From positions 1 through 64,000 of the forward strand of contig JAPOKJ010000001.1 of the NCBI GenBank assembly GCA_029977705.1: 64,000 bases of DNA, in the 5' to 3' direction. The notes under the pieces are model-generated. The model did not search any database, was not told the origin of the DNA, and was given only the letters and a program-made list of their open reading frames with translations. The first letter of the stretch is position 1, and every line of letters begins with the position of its first letter. Shown piece by piece: positions 22,245 to 23,648 of the stretch. The DNA comes from Burkholderiales bacterium. GTDB lineage: Bacteria; Pseudomonadota; Gammaproteobacteria; Burkholderiales; Burkholderiaceae_E. The position numbers and the translations under genes were made by a program.

Positions 22245-22314
22245 GGGGGCGTGGGTCGATCGGCGGCAGGGCGCATCGTTGGTCCGGCGTTTCAGGCCGG
22301 CGAAGGGGCTGCCC

Positions 22315-22343
22315 TTCCAAGGACATCGGGCGACCCGTATAAT
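22315..22343 (+). promoter_or_regulatory. sigma70 promoter for metK
   Basis: A perfect -10 hexamer TATAAT is at 22338-22343, with TTCCAA at 22315-22320 as a weak -35 at 17-base spacing. Transcription would begin near 22350, giving a leader of about 130 bases before metK. Confidence 0.6.
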
Positions 22344-22349
22344 CTCATG

Positions 22350-22481
22350 AAGGCCGTTGAGTTAATGACAACTTGCGGAGCGGCCCCGGGTCAGCCTGCC
22401 TGCGCAGCGCCCTTTCCTCCCGCTAAAGCGTCGCCGCTTCATGAAAGTGGGCAACGCCACACACTTTTTACTGGAGCAGCG
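22350..22481 (+). promoter_or_regulatory. structured metK leader, candidate cis-regulatory RNA
   Basis: The leader can form several helices: GGCCG (22352-22356) with CGGCC (22381-22385); inside that, GTTG with CAAC; AAGCG with CGCTT around TCGC near 22426-22439; and a hairpin directly before the ribosome-binding site (listed separately). CGCTAAAG and CTTGCGG recall parts of the SAM-II riboswitch, but the spacing does not fit that consensus by eye. Methionine-cycle genes are often riboswitch-controlled. Whether this one is can only be settled by a covariance search. Confidence 0.35.
22443..22469 (+). terminator. attenuator-like hairpin upstream of metK ribosome-binding site
   Basis: GAAAGTG (22443-22449) pairs with CACTTTT (22462-22468, last pair G-U). 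GGC/GCC continues the stem (22450-22452 with 22456-22458) around AAC, with an ACA bulge, and the run of T ends at 22469. The GGAG of metK follows at 22473-22476, so the structure could control termination or access to the site. Confidence 0.4.

Positions 22482-23648
<1,167 letters not shown>

Follow-up and report, generated by a model that had tools for sequence, protein, structure and literature searches.

A probable SAM riboswitch of the SAM-II/SAM-V superfamily in the metK leader of Betaproteobacteria

In a Burkholderiales genome, the metK leader very probably contains a riboswitch for SAM that belongs to the SAM-II/SAM-V superfamily, acts on translation and, as tested, is absent from Rfam 15. 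At its center is a conserved H-type pseudoknot shared by metK leaders, made up of a stem (P1), the loop GAGUUAA-N-GACAACUUGCGG and the 3' strand CCGCUAAAGCGUC. The element probably lets betaproteobacteria lower metK translation when SAM is plentiful; we infer SAM as the ligand, OFF as the direction and a competing hairpin as the ON state.

The window analyzed here is a 64,000-nt stretch, in which metK (22482-23648, plus strand) encodes methionine adenosyltransferase (NCBIfam TIGR01034, 604.3 bits; cut-off, 309.4), with two lipid A acyltransferase-like genes standing opposite it. The initial annotation had placed a TATAAT about 140 bases upstream of metK, leaving a leader of about 130 bases. 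The putative -10 box indeed lies at 22338-22343 (plus strand), 138 nt from the metK ATG at 22482, and taking the start to be ~7 nt past the box gives a leader of ~130 nt. A promoter scan of the leader called no full sigma-70 site upstream of metK, so the -35 element is weak or absent. In 125 of 153 metK leaders, a TATAAT-like box (at least 5 of 6 letters) stands 2-25 nt before P1, compared to a mean of 15.9 for shuffled upstream stretches. The sequence also contains a Shine-Dalgarno (SD) motif, GGAG, at 22473-22476 (plus strand). Folded as a single sequence, the leader reaches -50.5 kcal/mol (z -0.61), and 57 of 200 shuffles fold equally well or better; it is the comparative evidence, not single-sequence folding, that sets the leader above chance. 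A minus-strand CRISPR-DR20 match (19.9 bits; gathering score, 42) at 22270-22306, where an inverted repeat precedes the promoter, is probably due to chance, and this and a WT1-AS match elsewhere in the Rfam output for the window were rejected as scoring far below threshold. A plasmid search with metK returned nothing of use.

All parts of the element lie on the plus strand. The P1 strands GGCCGTT (22352-22358) and AGCGGCC (22379-22385) pair with each other, as assigned from pair counts and double changes. They enclose the L1 "third strand" GAGUUAA (22359-22365), delimited by letter conservation in metK rows, and the 5' strand of the pseudoknot, GACAACUUGCGG (22367-22378), delimited by pair counts in 58 metK rows. 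The 3' strand, CCGCUAAAGCGUC (22420-22432), is again defined by letter conservation in metK rows. Within the pseudoknot, GCGG pairs with 22420-22423, UU with 22425-22426, C22372 with G22428, and GAC with 22430-22432, giving the H-type fold of the SAM-II/SAM-V superfamily, a P1 stem whose loop pairs with a 3' tail. The initial annotation had likened CTTGCGG (22372-22378) and CGCTAAAG (22421-22428) to pieces of SAM-II in a different layout, and these prove to be the two strands of the pseudoknot. The variable linker between the two halves (22386-22419) lacks the A-rich stretch that most relatives have before the pseudoknot: 22416 is A in 49 of 58 metK rows and 22417 in 45 of 58, and the window has C.

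To assess conservation, metK genes were picked by protein homology from 61 genomes, 60 of which matched, and their upstream regions were read. The 58 testable leaders leave out one at a contig start (L028), those of two second metK-like genes (L059 and L061), a genome with metK at the contig start (G042) and one with no metK match (G029). The block GCCGAGTTAA-N-GACAACTTGCGGGGC ... CCGCTAAAGCGTCGCC was found in 39 leaders by regular expression, and L030 was added by model, which brings the pseudoknot element to 40 of the 58 testable metK leaders. The window's family accounts for 33 of these (35 leaders tested) and other families of the order for 7 (23 tested). The 18 element-negative metK leaders gave no model match better than E 0.62. 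Within one genus of the window's family, two members lack the element at metK (L018 and L024) and two have it (L015 and L019). The window's own genome has one clear model match, at metK, and the next has an E value of 0.207.

The block also extends more widely. When named genome contigs were scanned for the exact pattern, at least 118 stretches with the block were returned, many of them in Betaproteobacteria, and among the matches listed, 89 of 118 pattern-chosen copies precede metK by a strict rule. The metK copies, among the matches listed, include records of Cupriavidus, Bordetella, Pusillimonas, Roseateles, Polynucleobacter, Limnobacter, Thauera, Dechloromonas and Sutterella. One further pattern copy, in Desulfobulbus alkaliphilus, is followed by an ORF that reads like MetK.

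The pairing itself is supported by covariation. Alignment A1 comprises 34 of the 39 regular-expression-positive leaders, the near-duplicates L007, L009, L020, L023 and L026 having been dropped by eye. Across A1, 96.4% of 561 P1 and pseudoknot cells are paired, and 8 of the 17 pairs show changes on both sides, with 0 of 500 shuffles as good; sliding the partners lowers pairing to 38.8-52.3%. The count of further pair types was not above that of shuffles (231 of 500 equally high). Covariation among related Burkholderiales metK leaders, which the initial annotation had set as a test of its proposal of a structured regulatory leader, was found, and that proposal is supported.

A second, model-based set (A2), in which the same genome is represented twice as L207/L265 and as L208/L267, contains 58 distinct metK rows. 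In these rows, 22377:22421 changes from G-C to A-U in 12 and is unpaired in 3, 22378:22420 changes from G-C to A-U in 4, and 22372:22428 changes from C-G to A-U in 1 and is unpaired in 2. The core pseudoknot pairs at 22373-22376 are invariant in all 58 metK rows and, as they never vary, speak neither for nor against the pseudoknot. All metK rows scored (56-58 per pair) form the five inner pairs of P1; for the two outermost pairs, only 41 of 56 and 25 of 36 rows do so, with failures in 15 and 11, respectively. P1 and the two outer pseudoknot pairs covary. In some pattern-chosen copies, the GAC/GUC part is lengthened with matching changes, as judged by eye: GAAC/GUUC in L143, CAAC/GUUG in L129 and CCAC/GUGG in L124. 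Two copies carry inserts, an extra hairpin (GTGGC..GCCAC) in the L1 loop of L039 (560-641) and a long linker insertion in L030 (1229-1383), which show where the fold tolerates them. The window copy is itself a weaker example, with an odd P1, no A-rich linker and a score of 63.4 bits against the model from metK leaders, a value that is not independent because the window copy (L001) was among the model's 34 input sequences; the best copies reach 79.7 bits.

The initial annotation had also suggested a covariance-model search for SAM-type riboswitches, and here no Rfam 15 model recognized the window copy or any of the 29 other metK copies tested, in any search. At gathering scores, nothing was reported in the window and nothing at the element in 18 pattern loci (12 at metK); 14 metK loci searched at E up to 10 left the metK form unrecognized; and RF00521 (SAM-II) gave no match in three metK loci at E up to 1. 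As a positive control, RF00521 matched 12 of 20 fetched loci at E up to 1, 3 of them over the gathering score. RF01826 (SAM-V) matched neither the window nor the relatives tested, and its genome scan matched 0 of 200 genomes but also 0 of 14 controls; in our SAH-model scan of the window's own genome, no control genome matched either, and neither scan is evidence of absence.

We scanned 300 genomes of the order with R1, a model built from metK leaders; at E up to 0.01 it matched 199, a tally in which metK copies and other targets are mixed. Twenty regions were fetched from weaker or second R1 matches; the four checked precede metZ (L211, L212 and L216) or metX (L213), and others read so. The metZ/metX copies carry the SAM-II form GAUUUGA ... 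CAGCUUGCGGGCGC, and RF00521 matches all four. R1, like the SAM-II model, detects these metZ/metX copies. Scanned with RF00521 itself, 52 of 120 genomes from the order gave a match at E up to 0.001, and 20 of these passed the cut-off.

R1 matches twice in 14 loci from 13 genomes, a count that is no frequency, as seven of these loci were fetched for a SAM-II match beside an R1 match. As a rule, the TTGA type lies upstream and the TTAA type downstream; in L266 both are of the TTGA type. Many tandems are followed by a small protein with MYDC or MFDC at its start and, after it, by a MATE-like protein (Pfam MatE was tested in L218 alone). SAM-II-type copies, metK-type copies or both precede such an operon of the MYDC/MFDC protein and MATE-like exporter in L190, L197, L207, L209, L218, L260-L265 and L269.

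Other targets were found within and beyond the order. A scan of the phylum matched 30 of 299 genomes, 12 outside the order, where one copy (L302), with the SAM-II core, precedes metZ. In one gammaproteobacterial family (f55), all 11 matched genomes have a metK-type copy before an ORF of ~100-120 amino acids, the ORFs being related by eye (L291, L293, L294, L296-L301, L303 and L304), with a motif like LAPIT..NPKILLGG..QP.LLRYLDGWP. This ORF had no match in Pfam (2 tested) or NCBIfam (1 tested). In L210 (301-1972), a copy precedes a MoxR-like AAA ATPase (AAA_5), as do, by eye, copies in L113, L144 and L178; one of them comes from a member of the window's family and is the second copy in its genome. 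In a gammaproteobacterial metagenome-assembled genome, the pattern (L133, 3783-3826) lies before an ORF reading like O-acetylhomoserine sulfhydrylase. Among targets with no known methionine connection, which count against the SAM reading, are the MATE exporter and the MoxR-like ATPase, along with an HD-domain protein and small orphan proteins.

We compared the conserved letters with the ligand pocket of SAM-V. In the portions of PMC6061858 consulted, U47 pairs with the adenine of SAM, A50 contacts its amino-acid end, and a U20:A48.U9 triple is faced by the sulfonium; U8 of the third strand contacts U47 and makes no direct ligand contact. In a register mapped by way of the SAM_alpha consensus, which is not a structure, U47 corresponds to U22424, A50 to A22427, U20 to U22374, A48 to A22425 and U9 to U22362. 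The equivalents of U9, U20, A48 and A50 are kept in 58 of 58 metK rows and that of U47 (T at 22424) in 57 of 58, as would be expected of a member of the SAM-II/SAM-V superfamily. U22363 matches U10 of SAM-V, and none of the 58 metK rows departs from T at 22362 or 22363. The exception is the counterpart of U8, 22361, where 46 of these rows have G, 10 have T and 2 have C. There is some chance, in our judgment a small one, that Betaproteobacteria and one gammaproteobacterial family share an aptamer class that is related to SAM-II but separate from it. In such a class, the adenine side of the pocket would be remodeled (U8 to G), the pseudoknot longer and the SD sequestered by a platform of the element's own, and the regulon would reach beyond methionine metabolism to MATE exporter operons behind SAM-II/metK-type tandems, a MoxR-like ATPase and small orphan proteins; the ligand it prefers may then be another than for SAM-II.

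Behind the pseudoknot of the proposed superfamily member lies a putative expression platform. An anti-SD strand (22430-22441, plus strand) pairs through 22430-22434 with 22479-22483 and through 22436-22441 with 22472-22477, a duplex of -22.7 kcal/mol in the window, and the resulting helix (22430-22441 with 22472-22483) hides the SD and the metK start codon. For comparison across relatives, 154 leaders were reduced to 140 by dereplication; 89 of the 154 had been chosen by exact pattern, and the anchor letters of those 89 carry no information on conservation. Without correction for relatedness, the anti-SD:SD duplex has a mean of -15.2 kcal/mol for native partners and -11.2 kcal/mol for swapped ones in these 140 leaders (Wilcoxon p 7e-19), and the native duplex is strictly better in 77% of swaps. 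The anti-SD strand co-varies with the Shine-Dalgarno region. A competing hairpin, whose 5' arm GCGUCGCC (22428-22435) pairs with the 3' arm GGCAACGC (22450-22457; both plus strand) with one mismatch, overlaps both the pseudoknot and the anti-SD strand, and over the 140 leaders it beats shuffled sequences by 2.34 and swapped ones by 0.66 kcal/mol on average.

These parts suggest the following model. The RNA would start just before P1, and P1 and the loop-to-3' pseudoknot would form a pocket built like those of SAM-II and SAM-V. Once SAM is bound, 22420-22432 would be held in the pseudoknot, leaving the anti-SD strand behind it to pair with the SD and start codon, and metK translation would fall. 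Without SAM, the competing hairpin (22428-22435 with 22450-22457) would take up the 3' side of the pseudoknot together with the anti-SD strand, and the SD would be open.

The OFF direction in this model is taken from the precedent of SAM-V, reported as a translational OFF switch in the excerpts consulted, and from the role of metK in making SAM; the folding calculation is not counted toward it. Comparing SD access without and with the aptamer, folding gave lower access in 28, higher in 14 and unchanged access in 111 of 153 leaders, with the mean passing from 0.256 to 0.233; with or without the aptamer, the SD stays largely hidden, and in the window leader its access is zero in both states. As folding leaves the direction unfixed and 14 leaders go the other way, a SAM riboswitch could instead turn translation ON, or act through mRNA decay or Rho-dependent termination rather than SD access. 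We regard this as improbable: 28 of the 153 leaders shift toward OFF, the SD pairing co-varies, the SAM-V precedent points to OFF, and feedback repression is expected for a gene whose product makes SAM.

The same pseudoknot riboswitch might also respond to a ligand that is not, or not only, SAM, for example, SAH or methylthioadenosine, with specificity shifted through the L1 base by the adenine pocket. That base, 22361, is the one mostly G in metK rows and is T in 24 of 29 non-metK rows, and the targets with no known methionine connection would fit such a shift. Against it, the equivalents of the sulfonium-facing U9, U20 and A48, and of A50, are invariant in the 58 rows, and the main target is metK, whose product is SAM; we give this reading a low probability.

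Nor is it at all likely that the conserved block is no ligand aptamer and the leader a plain SD-masking one, an RNA thermometer or a protein-bound leader. The SD being mostly hidden in both computed states and the unexceptional single-sequence folding would suit such a leader, but the covarying pseudoknot speaks against it, as do the nearly invariant unpaired letters, which coincide with those of a known ligand pocket.

The initial annotation had described an attenuator-like hairpin before metK, GAAAGTG/CACTTTT with a T run. The sequence is present (plus strand: 5' arm 22443-22449, 3' arm 22462-22468, T run 22465-22469) and lies before the ribosome site as described, with the SD GGAG close behind the T run. 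These arms form the tip of the longer helix that hides the SD, and the attenuator-like label is not supported. For it to stop RNA polymerase before metK, an AU-rich stem with the SD right behind its T run would have to serve where a GC-rich hairpin followed by a T run was sought and not found. A terminator scan found none in the window leader, and our own scan, covering up to 78 nt behind each copy, found none behind 73 metK-type (TTAA) copies, 59 of them at metK, and terminators behind 7 of 17 SAM-II-type (TTGA) copies. The stem and T run are not kept in the relatives' leaders that were read. Transcription attenuation is accordingly a very poor candidate.

That the element is a SAM/SAH riboswitch (RF01727), another metK pseudoknot with SD control, can be set aside almost completely. 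It stands before the same gene and has a match at 22445-22478, but this match (11.3 bits, E 4.3) falls short of the gathering score of 40 and covers the SD helix only, and none was found in 14 relatives at E up to 10.

The proposed SAM riboswitch bears on a gap in the description of methionine regulation. In the parts of Leyn et al. 2014 consulted (PMC4239095), SAM_alpha is given only for Rhizobiales and Rhodobacterales, a pseudoknot element with terminators is described at betaproteobacterial metXZ, and betaproteobacterial metK is placed under no known methionine regulator, a search having failed and constitutive expression being suggested as a possibility. The sections of Corbino 2005 consulted (PMC1273637) name a Bordetella bronchiseptica sequence in the SAM-II figure. 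Within the accessible text of the openly licensed PMC literature (subscription papers, supplements and preprints lying outside this scope), we found no description of a betaproteobacterial metK riboswitch. The metK-leader pseudoknot element would fill the metK gap of Leyn et al. 2014, making betaproteobacterial metK regulation a directly testable question, and new candidate regulon members follow. Since a widespread SAM-II-like form goes unrecognized by Rfam 15, annotation misses much SAM control in this group.

Among known systems, the metXZ element is likewise a pseudoknot leader of betaproteobacterial methionine genes, but, as far as the consulted parts of PMC4239095 show, it has a terminator and lies at metX/metZ; it looks like the SAM-II form seen at metX/metZ here. 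The SAM/SAH riboswitch shares the metK leader and, in the excerpts consulted, is reported to be an H-type pseudoknot controlling translation, whereas the metK element gives no valid match to its model. SAM-II (RF00521, SAM_alpha) resembles the metK form in its P1 and loop-to-tail pseudoknot and in its CUUGC and GCUAAAG strands, which are as in the Rfam consensus, and metZ/metX relatives of the same order match both R1 and RF00521. However, L1 is GAGUUAA (or GGUUUAA or GAUUUAA) in the metK form and GAUUUGA in SAM-II, the pseudoknot strand GCGG has one G more than the GCG of SAM-II, and the metK form has an optional long linker and SD control, whereas many SAM-II copies end in a terminator; RF00521 matches none of the metK copies tested. 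SAM-V (RF01826) has the same pocket logic and is also translational, with SD control behind the aptamer in a different geometry: in the descriptions consulted, the SD is part of the SAM-V pseudoknot end itself, whereas in the metK form a separate anti-SD strand pairs with it. SAM-V and the metK form occur in different bacteria. SAM-V is described, again in the excerpts consulted, in tandem behind SAM-II, as metK-type copies are in 14 loci, and the consulted part of a review of tandem riboswitches (PMC9481103) counts 44 SAM-II tandems, some with a terminator first and ribosome-site control second. The SAM-II-type/metK-type tandems would repeat, in another lineage, the two-level SAM-II/SAM-V order of marine bacteria.
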